Positions 12,951-46,756 of a DNA stretch of 53,702 nucleotides are shown one piece after another. Positions within the stretch are counted from its first letter, which is position 1, and each line of letters begins with the position of its first letter. This stretch comes from Mucilaginibacter sp. (GTDB lineage Bacteria > Bacteroidota > Bacteroidia > Sphingobacteriales > Sphingobacteriaceae). Below the pieces are notes generated by a model. It was not told where the DNA came from, did no database searches, and saw only the letters and a program-made list of their open reading frames with translations. Made by a program: the position numbers and the translations under genes. The stretch covers positions 1 to 53,702 of the forward strand of contig JAQBOH010000184.1 of the NCBI GenBank assembly GCA_028288125.1, in the 5' to 3' direction.

Positions 12951-13367
12951 CTAATTACAATGTGTCTTAACAAAATCCTCTGCGTAAGCTTTTATTTCGT
13001 CACGAACTGTTCTGAATTTATCCATTACCTGTCCGGCGGTGCCGGTTGCCCTTGCGGGATCGGTAAAGTTATGATGAAAGCGTTCGGCCGTGGTTGGGAA
13101 CCATGGGCAGTTTTCTTTCGCGTTATCGCATACGGTTATCACATCATCAAAAGGAATATCCGCATACTCACCGACATTGTTTGAGGTGTGGCGGCTAATG
13201 TCGATACCGTCCTCCGCCATTACCTGTATGGCTTTGGGGTTAACGCCATGAGTTTCGATACCGGCGCTATAAATAGCGGCTTTATCGCCTGCAAAATGCC
13301 TTAAATACCCTTCGGCTATCTGGCTGCGACAGCTGTTACCGGTGCATAGTACCAAAATATTTTTCAT
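12951..13367 (-). CDS. arsC: Arsenate reductase, thioredoxin-coupled (LMW-PTP fold)
   Basis: A 138-residue cytosolic enzyme reducing arsenate to arsenite. The P-loop CTGNSCRS at 8-15 and the redox pair in [10 protein letters not shown] (about Cys80 and Cys87) are the three catalytic cysteines of the Staphylococcus aureus pI258 ArsC type; [14 protein letters not shown] and [10 protein letters not shown] are the typical middle. It is the last gene of the leftward ars operon, overlapping the acr3 stop by 4 bp (ATGA type), so they are translationally coupled: arsenate is reduced and then exported by Acr3. Very sure of family and context. Confidence 0.95.
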
Positions 13368-14446
13368 ATATGCGTTTGAATTTTAGGCGTATAATATTTT
13401 TTTCTTAACCAAAAGACTACATTCACAAGGGCAATCAAAGCCGGCACTTCAACCAACGGCCCGATAACCCCTGCAAAGGCCTCCCCGCTATTAATACCAA
13501 ACACGCCTATCGAAACAGCAATAGCCAATTCAAAATTGTTACCCGCGGCAGTGAACGACAGCGCCGCATTTTGTGAATAATCTGCACCGAGCCAGTAACC
13601 AGCGGTAAACGTTACCATAAACATGATGATAAAATAAATGACCAGCGGGATAGCAATGCGCACCACATCAAATGGGATGTGAACGATCAAGTCACCTTTT
13701 AAGCTGAACATGGCGAGAATGGTAAATAACAACGCAATTAATGTTACCGGACTTATTTTAGGAATGAAAACTGATGTGTACCATTCGTTGCCTTTTACCT
13801 TACGTAAAATATGCCGTGTCAGGAATCCGCCTATAAAGGGCGCACCCAGGTAAATAAATACGGATTTTGCTATCTGCCCTATACCGATGTCCACCTGCAA
13901 TCCGGTCAGGCCGAAATACGGCGGCAGGATGGTTATAAATATCCAGGCAAACAGGCTGTAAAAAAGGACCTGGAAGATACTGTTAAAAGCTACCAGCCCG
14001 GCTGCGTATTCACGATTGCCATCGGCAAGTTCGTTCCAAACGATAATCATCGCAATACACCTTGCCAAACCGATCATAATTAAGCCTATCATATACGCGG
14101 GATGATCCCGAAGAAAAATAATCGATAAGGAAAACATGAGCACCGGCCCGATGATCCAGTTCATGACCAGCGACAGCGATAGAATTTTGACATTTTTGAA
14201 TACACGGCCCAATTCTTCGAACCTTACTTTAGCAAAAGGCGGATACATCATCAGGATCAAACCTATGGCAATAGGCAGGTTCGTCGTTCCGGATTGGAAG
14301 GAATTGATCAATGTTTTTGTGCCCGGTACAAAATAACCCAAAGCAACGCCCACTCCCATGGCAAGAAATATCCACAAAGTTAAGTATTGGTCTAAAAACC
14401 TTAATTTTTTTCTTTCGGACGCAGGCGTGCAATTGTTAGCACTCAT
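13364..14446 (-). CDS. acr3: ACR3-family arsenite efflux transporter
   Basis: An inner-membrane arsenite/H+ antiporter. I use the ATG at 14446 ([31 protein letters not shown]; 360 aa). The ATG at 14461 is possible; the track start at 14476 is a TTG and less likely. About ten membrane helices are visible. The key motif [19 protein letters not shown] contains the conserved metalloid-transport Cys, and the conserved Glu segment [36 protein letters not shown] is intact. It sits between arsN2 and arsC in the operon. ArsB-type transporters lack these motifs, so Acr3 is firm. Confidence 0.95.
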
Positions 14447-14531
14447 CTCTTTTTTGTACATTTTTTTAAATCCCAAACTGTCTATTACCCTCCTTATACA
14501 TAACCCTGAACTTCTCTTGCAGTATTCAGGT

Positions 14532-14957
14532 TTATATGTTCTTTTTCATGACAATAGCAGACTGAGGACAAACACGGCTAAACTCAGATGATTGCCGTAC
14601 TTCGGCAGGCACATCGGCCCTTATGATCTTCACGTAACCTTTGCTCCCGAAATAACCCGGCGCAGTTTCTGTTAATAAGTAAATTTCCGTTAATGCTTTG
14701 GAAGCAGCCAGCGCTTCTACCCGCCCGAGCAATTTGGCCGCTATTCCTCTGCCCCTGTAGTCCGCGCTCACTGCTAATGAGCGTAACAGGCCATAATTGC
14801 CGTATATCTCTAAACCTGCAACGCCGATAACTGCCGCATCTTCAATAGCTACAACGAAATTATCCAGCGTGTCCGGCAGGTCTGCAACCGGCAACTTTTC
14901 AGCGGCCAGCAAAGCGATTACCTGATCCTTATAATGTTGCGCGTGATGTGTTATCAT
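14532..14957 (-). CDS. arsN2: Arsenic-resistance GNAT acetyltransferase (ArsN2-like)
   Basis: A 141-residue GNAT N-acetyltransferase. The acetyl-CoA loop [18 protein letters not shown] is clear at about residues 68-85, after [13 protein letters not shown]; the C-terminal half has [47 protein letters not shown], which is the characteristic end of ArsN2 proteins encoded in ars operons, including the conserved SSEFSxxCPxSA. The substrate is probably an organoarsenical or a related toxin, but this is not settled for the family. It lies 10 bp downstream of the DUF6428 gene and 55 bp before the track start of acr3. Confidence 0.85.
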
Positions 14958-14967
14958 CAGGTTTGTT

Positions 14968-15537
14968 TTAGCAGCAGCCTCCGCCGGGTGTGCAGCAAGC
15001 TTCTGCCGCTATGGCCAGGTTTTTTAATTCTACTTTCGGTTTTTCGCTGGCAGCAGGCGCGCAGCATTCCTCACCTTTATCACTTGTACCACAACTTCCG
15101 CCACGACTGATGGCCTTGCACTGTACGGCATCCGGGCGCAAGTCAATAACAAGGCTTTCACTGTCAGCCGTCATTTCATTCGGGAACATTTGGCGGGTAT
15201 CAAATTCGGAATTGCCAAACTCTATTTTTACCGTTCCGTTTGGATCAAGCGGCAGCATCTTTTCTACGACCCCGACAATAGATAAAGCTTTTTTTACTTT
15301 CATGGAACGTAGTTGCTGCTGACCTTCGGGTACCCACAGCTGCACGATAATTTCTGTCCAGGCATTCATCACGCCGCCGCAATCGACGGAGGTGATGGGC
15401 GCCTGTTTGATCTCGGTGATATGATAAGCGGCATCTACAAATTTACCGTCAGCATATTGAATTAGCAGATCAAGTTCGGGGTGCTGCAATAAGGCGTCTT
15501 TAAATTTTTTCCAGGTGATGGCTTCTACTTTATTCAT
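14968..15537 (-). CDS. DUF6428 family protein with Cys-rich tail
   Basis: A 189-residue cytosolic protein resembling DUF6428, found in Bacteroidota ars operons. The N-terminal domain (about 1-135) reads MNKVEAITWKKFKDALLQHPELDLLIQYADG...VDCGGVMNAWTEIIVQLWVP. From about residue 139 the tail has eight Cys: CKAISRGGSC, EECCAPAA, EACCTPGGGCC at the extreme C-terminus. Paired Cys of this kind can bind As(III), as in ArsD and in ArsR C-termini, so a metalloid chaperone or buffer role is plausible. That is inference; no function is established. It is the second gene of the operon, with its own copy of the candidate ArsR site 15 bp before the ATG. Confidence 0.85.
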   Translation of the reverse strand: MNKVEAITWKKFKDALLQHPELDLLIQYADGKFVDAAYHITEIKQAPITSVDCGGVMNAWTEIIVQLWVPEGQQQLRSMKVKKALSIVGVVEKMLPLDPNGTVKIEFGNSEFDTRQMFPNEMTADSESLVIDLRPDAVQCKAISRGGSCGTSDKGEECCAPAASEKPKVELKNLAIAAEACCTPGGGCC

Positions 15538-15551
15538 GATCTCATTTGTTT

Positions 15552-15572
15552 ATTGCGATATTACGATTGATT
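15552..15572 (-). promoter_or_regulatory. Candidate ArsR site before the DUF6428 gene
   Basis: ATTGCGATATTACGATTGATT lies 15 bp before the DUF6428 start codon and shares ATTACGATTGATT with the site before arsR at 15920-15940. The two copies in the same operon are unlikely to be chance. This one has no good promoter box, so it may control an internal start or be a secondary operator. Confidence 0.5.
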
Positions 15573-15585
15573 GCTTCAATTTTTT

Positions 15586-15915
15586 TTAACAGCAATTAGC
15601 CGGTTCTTTATATAAGCTAAAAAATTCGCCCAGCTGGCTGCTCAACAATTTCCATGCTTTTGGCTCAATACAATAGCATACGCTTACGCCCTCAATGGCG
15701 CCTTGTATCAGCCCTGCGGTTTTCAGTTCCTTTAAATGCTGCGATATAGTGGCCTGCGCCAGGCCCAGCTCATCGACAAGGTCGCCGCAGATGCAGGCGT
15801 TGACGTTGATGATCTGCTGCAGGATAGCAATACGGGCCGGGTGCGCCAATGCCTTCAGCATAACGGCCAGCCTGTTTTGCTCGTCGGTGAATATTTCTGT
15901 TTTTGTTAGTCCCAT
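15586..15915 (-). CDS. arsR: ArsR-family arsenic-responsive repressor
   Basis: A winged-helix metalloregulator, 109 residues from the ATG at 15915 (MGLTKTEIFTDEQNRLAVMLKALAHPARIAIL). The track start at 15996 would add an Ile-rich, Lys-rich leader not seen in the family and would read through the candidate operator. HPARIAILQQI leads to NACICGDLVDELGLAQATISQHLKELKTAGLI, the DNA-recognition helix with a CxC As(III)-binding motif at its start; more Cys occur in VSVCYCIE and the C-terminal ANCC. It heads the five-gene leftward ars operon, 48 bp before the DUF6428 gene, and probably represses its own promoter. Confidence 0.92.
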   Translation of the reverse strand: MGLTKTEIFTDEQNRLAVMLKALAHPARIAILQQIINVNACICGDLVDELGLAQATISQHLKELKTAGLIQGAIEGVSVCYCIEPKAWKLLSSQLGEFFSLYKEPANCC

Positions 15916-15919
15916 GTAT

Positions 15920-15958
15920 ATCGCAATATTACGATTGATTATTAAAATATCAAAATTA
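15920..15958 (-). promoter_or_regulatory. ars operon promoter and operator
   Basis: On the leftward strand TAATTTTG (complement of 15951-15958) matches TAnnTTTG, although no TTG is found at the expected -33 spacing. It is followed by ATCGTAATATTGCGAT, a 16-bp near-perfect dyad (15920-15935), ending 4 bp before the arsR ATG. A repressor bound there would block initiation, and arsenite would release it. The leader would be about 30 nt. Confidence 0.5.
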
Positions 15959-16009
15959 ATTTTAATAATTTTATTAAGTCGTTGATCTTTAGGCAATTAT
16001 TTCTATTTG

Positions 16010-42578: not shown

Positions 42579-43751
42579 TTATAAAGCTTTGATCAGCAAC
42601 CCAATAACGGCAGCAGCGGCAATGATAACCGGCTCGTTAATCTTTTTGATATATAACATACCTGCAACCGCTAAAACCGCGATCAGGGCGGTGGGGATAT
42701 CGATAATGGACCGTATACCAATGACGATAACAGATCCTGCGAGAGCGCCGATCACAGCCGCCGTAATACCTTCAACAAATGCTTTGATGCTGACATTTTT
42801 TACGATCTTTTTAAATGACGGCGCCAGCATAACGGTAAATAAGTAGCATGGCAAAAATGTAGCCAGCGCGGCAACACACGCGCCAGGGAAGCCTGCCGCC
42901 AGGTAGCCTACAAAGCCAACCGTAATTACCACGGGGCCGGGTGTTATCATGGCCACAGCCACGGCATCAACAAACTGGTGCTCGGTCAGCCAGCCAAATT
43001 CTTTTACCACACCGCCATGCAGGAAGGGGACTATCGCCAGTCCGCTGCCAAAAACAAACGTACCAGCCTTTAAAAAGAACCAGCCGATACGCAGCAGCGT
43101 TTTTCCGTCATAATTCCAGAATCCGATGCTAAGCAATATAATTCCCGGTGCAATAACCGGTTTTTTTAGCCATTGGGGCGGCGCTTTGATCAGCATATAT
43201 AAAATGCCGCAGGTAATAAATAACAGGATTTCTTCCCGCTCCGTAACTACCGTAATCACAATAGCGGCAATGTAAAAGAGCCACAGCATCCACTTCGATC
43301 TCATAGCACTCAACTCAAGCTTACCTATTGATTTGATGGTAAGCTTATATGCACTTATCGCGATAATGCCTATAACCGCTGCGCCAACGCCGTAAAATAC
43401 AGCCTGCATCCATGGCAAGCCGCCATAAAGTTTATAGGCCATGCCCAGCAGCACAACCATAATAAACGACGGCAAAACAAATGCTAAACCGGCAAGCGTA
43501 GCGCCAATCAGTCTGTAGTGTACAAACCCGATGTAAATACCCAGTTGCGCTGCCAGGGGGCCGGGGGCCAGCTGGGCCAGCGCGAGACCTTCTTTGTATT
43601 CCTCTTCTGTTAACCAGGCTTTATCTTCTACCAGGTCGCGGTGCATATAGCCGACAAGGGCCACTGGGCCGCCGAAACCCCAGGTTCCCAGTTTCAGAAA
43701 ATAGGCCGCAAGTTCCCTCCTGGTATAAACAGGCGGAATAGCATCTTCCAT
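42579..43751 (-). CDS. chrA: Chromate transporter ChrA, two-domain
   Basis: A 390-residue inner-membrane protein of the CHR family that exports chromate. Both halves are present: the first has LKLGTWGFGGPVALVGYMHRDLVEDKAWLTEEEYKEGLALAQLAPGPLAAQLGIYIGF, the second FFLKAGTFVFGSGLAIVPFLHGGVVKEFGWLTEHQFVDAVAVAMITPGPVVITVGFVGYLAAG. These are internal duplicates with FGG/FGSG and PGP motifs, as in long-chain ChrA. It is the last gene of the chr module, 26 bp after the DUF1259 gene. The ChrB-like regulator two genes up supports chromate as the substrate; sulfate-type export cannot be excluded. Confidence 0.95.
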   Translation of the reverse strand: MEDAIPPVYTRRELAAYFLKLGTWGFGGPVALVGYMHRDLVEDKAWLTEEEYKEGLALAQLAPGPLAAQLGIYIGFVHYRLIGATLAGLAFVLPSFIMVVLLGMAYKLYGGLPWMQAVFYGVGAAVIGIIAISAYKLTIKSIGKLELSAMRSKWMLWLFYIAAIVITVVTEREEILLFITCGILYMLIKAPPQWLKKPVIAPGIILLSIGFWNYDGKTLLRIGWFFLKAGTFVFGSGLAIVPFLHGGVVKEFGWLTEHQFVDAVAVAMITPGPVVITVGFVGYLAAGFPGACVAALATFLPCYLFTVMLAPSFKKIVKNVSIKAFVEGITAAVIGALAGSVIVIGIRSIIDIPTALIAVLAVAGMLYIKKINEPVIIAAAAVIGLLIKAL

Positions 43752-43777: not shown

Positions 43778-44755
43778 CTACATGTGCATCGGCTCTTTAC
43801 CTTTGCCCAGTTCATTCAATGCCGCCCTGAATCCCTGCGCAAGTGTGACGGCCTGGCCGCGCCCATAATAATGCAAAAAGATCATATGCGGACTGTCCAT
43901 CAACATGTGGTTGTGCACGGCCACCACTTCAAGGTTATGCTTACGCAATGCCCTGATCACATCATTCACCTCGCTTTGCAGCATGGCAATATCCCCAGCA
44001 ATATGTGCGTCGCTCTGTTTACCGGCGAAAGACGCCCAGCTGTTCAGCCCAATATTTGTTGTCATATCCACGCCCATAGCAGTTACCTTTAGGTCGCTGC
44101 GGCCAATGGCGTATTTGTAGGTCGGCCCGTTTACAGTGCCGGTATATTTAACGATGGCATCCAGCGCGGGCACGTCAAAATTCTCTTTCCCCGTCATAGC
44201 AGGCGGCGAACCCGGTGCCGGTTGATTCGCAGGAAACAGTTTGCTGTCGCGTATGGTGTTGGCATATTTTTTTGCCAGCTCAGCCACGCTTCCCATGCCG
44301 TGAATGTGCATATAAAACATCCTTGGCTCTTCATAAAAAAAGTGGTTGTGAATGGCCGCTATTTCTAATCCGTTGGCATGCGCGGCAGATATTAGCGCAT
44401 TCACTTCATCCTGCTGCAAAACATTATCGCTCATCACCATGGCCGATTTGCCATCCATCGTTTTTTTGAATGACACCCAACCCCCAAAGCCAAACGGGAT
44501 AGGCACTGGTTCGCCTTTGATTTTCATTTTCAGATCGTTGCGCGGTATGGGCGTAGTGTGCACGGCCTCGGCTTCTTTATAAGCGCCTTTTTTACCCAGG
44601 GCGCTCTCAATGGACGCTATTTCTTCAGGTGTAAGGCCCGGCGTTTTCCCTGCCGGGGACATCGCTTCTAATTTGTTTAAAGGAAAAAGTAACGAGGTAC
44701 CAAGTACTGCTGTTGCCTGCAATATCTGCCGGCGGCTTAAATTGGGTGTTTTCAT
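43778..44755 (-). CDS. DUF1259 (LppY/LpqO-type) protein, Tat-like signal
   Basis: A 325-residue exported protein made of two copies of the DUF1259 domain. The N-terminus MKTPNLSRRQILQATAVLGTSLLFPLNKLEA has the SRRQILQ Tat-type motif. Each half carries an HNH...P.M...H...G.G set: first half GLEIAAIHNHFFYEEPRMFYMHIHGMGS, second half NLEVVAVHNHMLMDSPHMIFLHYYGRGQ. The repeated His suggests metal binding. It lies between the regulator and chrA (65 and 26 bp), so it may act in chromate defence, perhaps in the periplasm; function is inferred from neighbours only. Confidence 0.85.
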   Translation of the reverse strand: MKTPNLSRRQILQATAVLGTSLLFPLNKLEAMSPAGKTPGLTPEEIASIESALGKKGAYKEAEAVHTTPIPRNDLKMKIKGEPVPIPFGFGGWVSFKKTMDGKSAMVMSDNVLQQDEVNALISAAHANGLEIAAIHNHFFYEEPRMFYMHIHGMGSVAELAKKYANTIRDSKLFPANQPAPGSPPAMTGKENFDVPALDAIVKYTGTVNGPTYKYAIGRSDLKVTAMGVDMTTNIGLNSWASFAGKQSDAHIAGDIAMLQSEVNDVIRALRKHNLEVVAVHNHMLMDSPHMIFLHYYGRGQAVTLAQGFRAALNELGKGKEPMHM

Positions 44756-44820: not shown

Positions 44821-45678
44821 TTAACTATTTGTATCCTTTTTACTTTTTTGCATCGCTTTTTTATATGCCGAAGGGTTCTCGCCCATTTGCTTTTTAAATA
44901 TACGGTTAAAATGACTTTGATCCGAAAAGCCCGTCAGGTAAGCAATCTCAGTTAACGAATAATTAGTGGCCTGCATAAAGTGAATGGCTTTTTCGATCCG
45001 CATTTTGCGGATATAGTCGCCAAATGTTAAGTTCTCAAAGTATTTCGAAAACTCCCGCGATAAATAAGCAGGATTGATCTCCAGTTCTTCCGACACCTGT
45101 TGCAGGCTCAGGCTCATATTGGTGTCCACCTGGTCCTGTATCATTTCTTTGAGCTCATTAGCCCATTCCGGCGCCTTTTTAATATTCGCCTGTTTCAGGT
45201 ATTTATGGTACACTTCCAGTAAAAGCTGCTCAGCAGGTGCCTGTGTATGTTTTTCCTGGTACAGGTATTTCGCCCAGGTATATAGCCCATCGTATATTTT
45301 CATGCCCAATTCAAGCAGTTCATGATCGTCTTTAATATTTTGAGACAGTCCCATAAATATCGCCGACAAACCCGAAGCCTGGGGCGCGAAATCATGCCGG
45401 TCGGTATCTGCCCCGCGAACGATCAATGCGATACGGTTGAGCGCGGCATCTTTTAAGTGATGCTTTTTCAGGAAATAATCAAACGTACATTGATCGTCAT
45501 AATGTGTGTATTCAACATCCGGAAGGTCAAACGGTGTAGCATTTAATTCCTTAGCTTTTAATATAACCTGGTCAAAGGGCACATAAATAATTTCCGCGTC
45601 CGGGTCAATAAATCTTTTGATCAGCCAGGGGCAGGCAATGCGGTCAATTTTAGGATGTTCGCGTGTGATCCATTTCAT
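44821..45678 (-). CDS. ChrB-domain/AraC fusion, likely chromate-responsive regulator
   Basis: A 285-residue cytosolic regulator combining two domains. Residues 1-135 match the ChrB C-terminal (Chrome_Resist) domain: MKWITREHPKIDRIACPWLIKRFIDPDAEIIYVP, ATPFDLPDVEYTHYDDQCTFDYFLKKHHL, IVRGADTDRHDFAPQASGLSAIFMGLS. Residues 180-275 are an AraC HTH: LSLQQVSEELEINPAYLSREFSKYFENLTFGDYIRKMRIEKAIHFMQATNYSLTEIAYLTGFSDQSHFNRIFKKQMGENPSAYKK. It is the first gene of the leftward chr module. It probably binds or senses Cr(VI) and turns on the ChrA operon as a one-component activator. The fusion is seen; the ligand is inferred. Confidence 0.9.
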   Translation of the reverse strand: MKWITREHPKIDRIACPWLIKRFIDPDAEIIYVPFDQVILKAKELNATPFDLPDVEYTHYDDQCTFDYFLKKHHLKDAALNRIALIVRGADTDRHDFAPQASGLSAIFMGLSQNIKDDHELLELGMKIYDGLYTWAKYLYQEKHTQAPAEQLLLEVYHKYLKQANIKKAPEWANELKEMIQDQVDTNMSLSLQQVSEELEINPAYLSREFSKYFENLTFGDYIRKMRIEKAIHFMQATNYSLTEIAYLTGFSDQSHFNRIFKKQMGENPSAYKKAMQKSKKDTNS

Positions 45679-45847
45679 ATCATTCGGTCAGGTTAATTTC
45701 AAAGATATTATAGAATGGGGTACGGGCGAAAAATAAAAACGTTGACGTGTGCCGATTATAATTTAAATACCTATAGCATAATGGAAACAGGAATTTAGTA
45801 TTATCCGATTCCGTTTTATAACTTAGATACTTAAACCTTTCTTAATT

Positions 45848-46756
45848 ATGAAGTGTAAATTATTGCCTTTCCTTTTATTGGTTACTTCCGTGGGATTCGC
45901 GCAAACAGATAAAAAGCTAACGGCCAAACTAAACGAGCTTGTAAAAGGCTTTAACGGACAGGTCGGCATTTACGTTCAAAACCTTAAAACCGGTAAAACC
46001 GCAGCTATCAACGCGGATACGCTGTTCCCTACCGCCAGCATGATAAAAGTAAGCATTCAATGCGGGCTAATGGATAAAATTGAAAAGGGTCAGATGCAGT
46101 ACAATCAAAAACTGGTTTACCGCGATTCGCTGCTTTATAAAGGCGAGGATATCTTAGGCTCTTTTAAAGACAAAGACACCATTGAGGTGAGTAAAGTGGC
46201 CCTGCTGATGATCACGATGAGTGACAATACCGCAAGTGTATGGCTGCAAAAGCTTGTCGGCGGGCCGTATATTAACAACTGGCTGGAACAAAACGGGTTC
46301 AAAGTAATGCGGGTAAATTCAAGGGTTCCCGGGCGCGAGGCTATTCGCAAACGATACGGCTGGGGTGTTACCACGCCCTATGAAATGTGCCGCTTATTTA
46401 CCATGATCCGTGAAGGAAAGGCAGTAAATCCGGCAGCCAGCCAGCGCATGTACCGCAACATGGGCCGTATATTTTGGGACGACAAGGCCATATCGCAAAT
46501 ACCGCCCTATATACAAACCGCCTCCAAACAGGGCGCGCTCGACGAATCAAAGTCGGAAACTGTGTTGGTAAACGCGCCGCATGGCGATTATGTATTTTCT
46601 ATCATCACCAATAACAACAAAGACCGACGCTGGTTGTCCGATAATGAGGCGTACATCCTTATCCGCAAAGTGTCTGCGCTTTTATGGCATTATTACGAGC
46701 CCAAAAGCGACTGGAAACCGGCGGATGGGATAGAAAGGTATATGTTGAATGAATAA
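45848..46756 (+). CDS. Class A beta-lactamase-like serine hydrolase
   Basis: A 302-residue exported protein. Signal peptide MKCKLLPFLLLVTSVGFAQ. The active-site SxxK is SMIK at 64-67; SDN is present at 125-127 (MSDNTAS); a Glu in the omega-loop-like stretch VPGREAIRKRYGWG (Glu164) could be the deacylation base. The third motif, normally K(T/S)G, reads KQG at 227-229, an unusual change. It may be a weak lactamase or a penicillin-interacting enzyme of another kind. No regulatory genes of bla type are nearby. Gene starts near 45848 with no clear promoter box. Confidence 0.85.
   Translation: MKCKLLPFLLLVTSVGFAQTDKKLTAKLNELVKGFNGQVGIYVQNLKTGKTAAINADTLFPTASMIKVSIQCGLMDKIEKGQMQYNQKLVYRDSLLYKGEDILGSFKDKDTIEVSKVALLMITMSDNTASVWLQKLVGGPYINNWLEQNGFKVMRVNSRVPGREAIRKRYGWGVTTPYEMCRLFTMIREGKAVNPAASQRMYRNMGRIFWDDKAISQIPPYIQTASKQGALDESKSETVLVNAPHGDYVFSIITNNNKDRRWLSDNEAYILIRKVSALLWHYYEPKSDWKPADGIERYMLNE

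Follow-up and report, generated by a model that had tools for sequence, protein, structure and literature searches.

The window, by which we mean the whole stretch of 53,702 nucleotides of DNA from Mucilaginibacter sp., a soil bacterium of the Bacteroidota, analyzed here, carries at 44821–45678 on the minus strand a gene for a protein of 285 residues that starts with ATG and is conserved over its full length. When the protein is compared with Pfam, residues 3–135 (45274–45672, minus strand) match the ChrB C-terminal domain, ChrB_C (PF09828), with 174.7 bits against a cut-off of 25 (E = 1.5e-51), and residues 196–274 (44857–45093, minus strand) match HTH_18 with 74.3 bits against a cut-off of 33.6 (E = 9.9e-21); the C-terminal part also gives an HTH_AraC match. 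The first-pass annotation had proposed that a ChrB C-terminal domain is joined here to a C-terminal AraC helix-turn-helix (HTH) domain, and had named an insignificant ChrB match as one result that would speak against its reading; both scores lie far above their cut-offs. Neither Pfam nor the alignment reveals a ChrB_N domain or any further N-terminal domain, ChrB_C beginning at residue 3. Dozens of independent genomes show this open reading frame, so the fusion is a real gene and no assembly artefact. It encodes the sole ChrB_C protein of the source genome (a 3.42 Mb assembly, 80% complete). A second, two-domain ChrA is encoded on another contig of this genome (G000:C31:6719-7879), where there is no ChrB_C. 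The NCBI name of the homologues, 'chromate resistance protein ChrB domain-containing protein', makes no mention of the AraC part.

The fusion gene is followed on the same strand, after 65 bp, by a gene for an exported protein of the DUF1259/LppY-LpqO family (43778–44755, minus strand; PF07485, E = 3.9e-76), which is ChrL-like by its family link (PMC2751784), and, after a further 26 bp, by the gene for a long ChrA chromate efflux transporter (42579–43751, minus strand; PF02417, E = 2.5e-79; TIGR00937, 381.9 bits against a cut-off of 171.7). The first-pass annotation was right that the fusion heads an operon with ChrA, but it left the intervening DUF1259 gene unmentioned. A chr operon comprises a regulator, chrA and accessory chr genes; the window has chrA and a DUF1259/chrL-type gene, and the chrC (superoxide dismutase), chrF and chrK types are found as accessory genes at homologous loci. 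The divergent neighbor (45848–46756, plus strand) belongs to the Beta-lactamase2 family (E = 8.7e-44), scores well under the NCBI class A cut-off and is not conserved next to the fusion. Elsewhere in the window, at 12951–15996 on the minus strand, lies an arsenic-type resistance cluster encoding an ArsR-family HTH protein, DUF6428, a GNAT acetyltransferase, an SBF/ACR3-type transporter and an LMWPc arsenate-reductase-type protein.

Upstream of the fusion, an EM motif finder returned the motif TAnnTTTG, which is repeated before the fusion homologues with scores far above those of shuffled sequences and which we take to be the Bacteroidota -7 promoter box. In the window the match is TATCTTTG (45700–45707, minus strand), 21 nt before the ATG of the fusion. 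This box was the only motif that the search upstream of the fusions yielded, with no conserved operator; when it was masked, the remaining upstream signals were weak and mostly reflected shared ancestry. Scans for sigma-70 promoters and terminators gave nothing clearly beyond shuffled sequences.

In the AF2 model the ChrB_C domain has a mean pLDDT of 97, whereas pLDDT falls to 45–52 at about residues 141–170; the linker itself was placed from this model at approximately residues 136–168 (45175–45273, minus strand), with low confidence at 145–167, and AraC-type helices are predicted in the C-terminal part. With a pTM of 0.52 for the whole model, the placement of the domains relative to each other is undefined. 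The C-terminal part matches AraC-type domains in the PDB by sequence and by fold (Foldseek, TMt up to 0.83). For ChrB_C alone there is no significant sequence relative in the PDB, and among the fold matches listed none had E below 0.58 or a probability above 0.25, making it a candidate for an unsolved fold on the basis of the model. A rhodanese superfamily relationship has been proposed for the ChrB C-terminus (PMC3817168). We found no support for it: 35 ChrB_C domains searched against Pfam, with E values up to 5 allowed, match no rhodanese family, and no rhodanese is among the PDB fold matches listed (best probability 0.25). An origin from DHH/MYG1 phosphoesterases was also considered, on account of a weak viral fold match (probability 0.33, TMq 0.58) and a resemblance in motifs, but was dropped because profile comparison with the NrnA- and RecJ-type DHH families gave a probability of 0.1%.

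A scan of genome contigs recovered full-length homologues at 61–86% identity in Mucilaginibacter, Pedobacter, Hufsiella, Chitinophaga, Niastella, Paraflavisolibacter, Cyclobacteriaceae and others, and the fusion is also present in Spirosoma. Between families of Bacteroidota it is conserved over its full length at 60–85% identity. Matches in Proteobacteria, Archaea, Acidobacteria and Omnitrophota end at about residue 150; a single gammaproteobacterial match extending past this point (L063) proved on inspection to be a stand-alone ChrB_C whose next gene encodes DUF1259. Across this one contig scan and a plasmid collection, full-length fusions are found in Bacteroidota only. Although 1133 of 72,556 plasmid records match the fusion, just two do so over the whole length at >55% identity, the Bacteroidota plasmids of Pedobacter (pA27BH1) and Spirosoma oryzicola, and a plasmid search with the C-terminal two thirds of the protein otherwise gave only generic AraC matches among the matches listed. 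At the level of genomes, the fusion occurs in 39 of 101 Mucilaginibacter genomes (counting matches below 1e-120). A ChrB_C match is present in 18 of 396 Bacteroidota genomes, and in 17 of these 18 it is the AraC fusion (interrupted or partial in two, G388 and G301); the remaining genome lies outside Bacteroidia and has a canonical ChrB. No canonical ChrB accompanies the fusion in the Bacteroidia loci examined. In Bacteroidia, the usual regulator of chromate resistance is probably this fusion. The domain pairing, which had been presented as unusual, is real enough, but it is the standard form in this class and no isolated oddity. We found no report of it in the open-access papers searched, and the fusion appears to be unstudied so far. 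In places the operon is mobile: on pA27BH1 it adjoins a Tn3-family transposase and a recombinase, and in another genome (G441, L157:9509-14873) the neighbors of the fusion-DUF1259-ChrA operon are genes of a CTnDOT-type conjugative transposon, among them a TraJ homologue.

The gene order that the first-pass annotation suggested looking for in other genomes recurs as well. Across 62 fusion loci, chrA is found on the same strand in 45 and DUF1259 in 25; other recurrent neighbors are a stand-alone ChrB_C directly in the gene run (10 loci), TolC-RND genes (10), a divergent YncE-like propeller (8) and an Fe/Mn superoxide dismutase of the ChrC type (4). An exported, barrel-like protein of 165–190 residues with no Pfam match is encoded at 17 of the 62 loci (for example L013:6113-6643). 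At nine loci TolC-RND genes lie directly downstream of the fusion, with no chrA within the retrieved stretch, and we considered whether chrA and the RND pump belong to two separate regulons; this was mostly overturned by seven longer stretches: in five of them (L158, L159, L160, L161 and L166) chrA comes after the RND genes, with the same orientation. The combined operon of L158 and L159 consists of a divergent yncE followed by the fusion, TolC, RND, an HlyD-type adaptor, DUF1259, a stand-alone ChrB_C and ChrA, and the other three are variants of this arrangement. In all five the pump sits between the regulator and chrA, and could make possible a two-step export of chromate. The RND proteins of these combined operons, which are partial sequences, score under the cut-off of every NCBIfam RND subfamily.

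A tree of 117 ChrB_C domains places the fused and the stand-alone domains of Bacteroidota in one set (support 100/96), next to the proteobacterial stand-alone (ChrF-type) domains and remote from canonical ChrB, which is separated by long branches. One entry labelled canonical (L064) is, judging by its placement, a stand-alone domain that lies within a longer open reading frame. An AU test does not reject a single origin of the fusion, nor does it establish one (p-AU 0.51). The stand-alone and fused proteins also have in common the tail SWAKxxxxEKHT, which in the fusion stands directly before the AraC linker. The putative sensory domain thus derives from the stand-alone, ChrF-like ChrB_C lineage and not from the ChrB regulator. 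Given the grouping in the tree and the shared tail, the fusion most likely began as a second copy of the ChrF-like protein encoded in the operon, to which an AraC domain became attached.

The residues linked to the chromate response are retained. In the ChrB of Ochrobactrum tritici, the changes R180A, R187A and H229A abolish induction by chromate, while C213A and four other arginine changes leave it intact (PMC3817168). We mapped these positions by a numbering offset on CH34 ChrB1, not by the O. tritici sequence itself: at an offset of 12, CH34 ChrB1 carries the expected residue at seven of the nine mutated positions, R180, R187 and H229 included, against at most two at any other offset. Residues R6, R13 and H59 of the fusion align with R192, R199 and H241 of CH34 ChrB1; they are invariant in 39 fusions, and their equivalents are invariant in 35 diverse ChrB_C domains, canonical ones included.

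Based on these sequence comparisons, we suggest that the fusion is probably a one-component, chromate-responsive regulator of the AraC family, the Bacteroidia counterpart that replaces ChrB. The first-pass annotation had put forward a candidate one-component chromate sensor, and the domain scores, the chromate-export operons around most homologues and the three invariant residues favor it. Counting against it are the failure of the upstream search to yield a conserved operator, the undefined arrangement of the two domains in the AF2 model, the two RND loci that lack a downstream chrA (L162 and L164), and the fact that R6, R13 and H59 are just as invariant in stand-alone ChrB_C proteins. Chromate inside the cell would be recognized directly by the N-terminal ChrB_C domain, at a site including R6, R13 and H59, and this recognition would alter the binding of the C-terminal AraC-type domain to DNA at the fusion's own promoter, so that the protein would regulate its own synthesis. 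The AraC domain would then activate the operon of the fusion, chrL (DUF1259) and chrA, and ChrA would export chromate; activation is proposed in preference to repression because the protein is a member of the AraC family. In evolutionary terms, the fusion may have arisen in Bacteroidota from a ChrF-like stand-alone ChrB_C and an AraC domain, displacing the ChrB_N-ChrB_C regulator.

It is conceivable, though unlikely, that the signal is not chromate itself but a related oxyanion or an effect that chromate has on the cell, such as oxidative stress or thiol stress, and that the operon is a broader stress operon. Some of the operons contain the Fe/Mn superoxide dismutase, C16 and C64 are conserved in the fusions, and the Arthrobacter chrL and chrA genes are also induced by H2O2, albeit 12.5- and 3.2-fold compared with 63- and 51-fold by Cr(VI) (PMC2751784). 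However, the fusion keeps the residues that ChrB needs to respond to chromate, the one ChrB cysteine that was tested, C213, is dispensable (PMC3817168), and the gene content is that of chromate determinants. We give still less weight to a scheme in which ChrB_C is an enzyme or chromate-handling protein that was attached to the AraC part incidentally, with regulation that requires no ligand to be sensed by ChrB_C. In its favor, earlier work cited in PMC3817168 suggests that ChrB may act as a reductase, the junction falls at the shared tail, and R6, R13 and H59 are invariant in the stand-alone ChrB_C of the same operons too, so a role in folding or catalysis in place of sensing is possible for them. 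Against this, the fused copy is kept as the first gene of operons in which a stand-alone ChrB_C is already present, as expected of a separate regulatory role. Moreover, an N-terminal ligand domain is a common feature of regulators in the AraC family. That the fusion mainly controls a multidrug-type RND pump, its link to chromate being secondary, seems very improbable: the nine loci with TolC-RND directly downstream and the two longer stretches with RND and adaptor genes but no chrA downstream (L162 and L164) could be read in this way, but chrA follows the RND genes in the other five, and the operon in the window has no RND gene at all.

Chromate sensing by the fusion remains our preferred reading; one-component regulation by chromate is of a known kind, and what is new is the exchanged DNA-binding domain. 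To our knowledge, few chromate-responsive regulators have been described. The fusion amounts to a natural domain swap: its putative sensory domain is coupled to a DNA-binding domain that is well understood, and this makes it possible to test ChrB_C itself directly as a chromate sensor. The fusion would also account for chromate regulation in Bacteroidota, a group whose sampled genomes hardly ever have a canonical ChrB, and it could serve as a compact chromate biosensor. More speculatively, Bacteroidota may have evolved a separate class of AraC-type activators by turning the operon's ChrF-like protein into a sensor in place of ChrB, a class that in some of these bacteria drives a combined system, with ChrA delivering chromate into the periplasm and a pump of TolC, RND and adaptor proteins taking it out of the cell; ChrB_C may be an oxyanion-binding domain of unsolved fold.

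When the fusion is set beside the canonical ChrB regulators of O. tritici TnOtChr and Cupriavidus metallidurans pMOL28, the likeness lies in a ChrB_C domain with the three residues needed for induction, in the place as first gene of a chr operon that includes chrA and, probably, in autoregulation. The architecture is different: canonical ChrB has ChrB_N for DNA binding and a C-terminal ChrB_C, whereas the fusion has an N-terminal ChrB_C followed by the AraC-type part, and its ChrB_C is only 31–35% identical to that of canonical ChrB and of another lineage. Much closer are the ChrF of pMOL28 (a stand-alone ChrB_C of 140 residues) and the stand-alone ChrB_C proteins of Bacteroidota, which are 52–67% identical to the fusion domain and have the same invariant residues in the same operons, but lack a DNA-binding domain. 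Within the AraC/XylS family, the fusion has the double HTH of about 100 residues seen in AraC, SoxS, MarA and YesN-type proteins, by sequence and by fold, but at its N-terminus ChrB_C stands in place of the AraC cupin or of other ligand domains so far described. The kinds of genes that recur at fusion loci also make up the chr cluster of pMOL28 in C. metallidurans (chrB, chrA, a superoxide dismutase gene, chrE, a stand-alone ChrB_C, DUF1259 and YncE). The determinant of Arthrobacter FB24 encodes ChrB-Nterm, ChrB-Cterm, ChrA, ChrK and ChrL, of which ChrL belongs to the DUF1259/LppY-LpqO family like the fusion's neighbor, and ChrK is a WD40-type propeller resembling the YncE-like neighbor of fusion loci; chrL and chrK are induced by chromate and required for full resistance (PMC2751784). 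In Arthrobacter FB24, ChrB is split into two genes with no AraC part (PMC2751784), whereas in Bacteroidia a single protein unites ChrB_C with the AraC-type domain.
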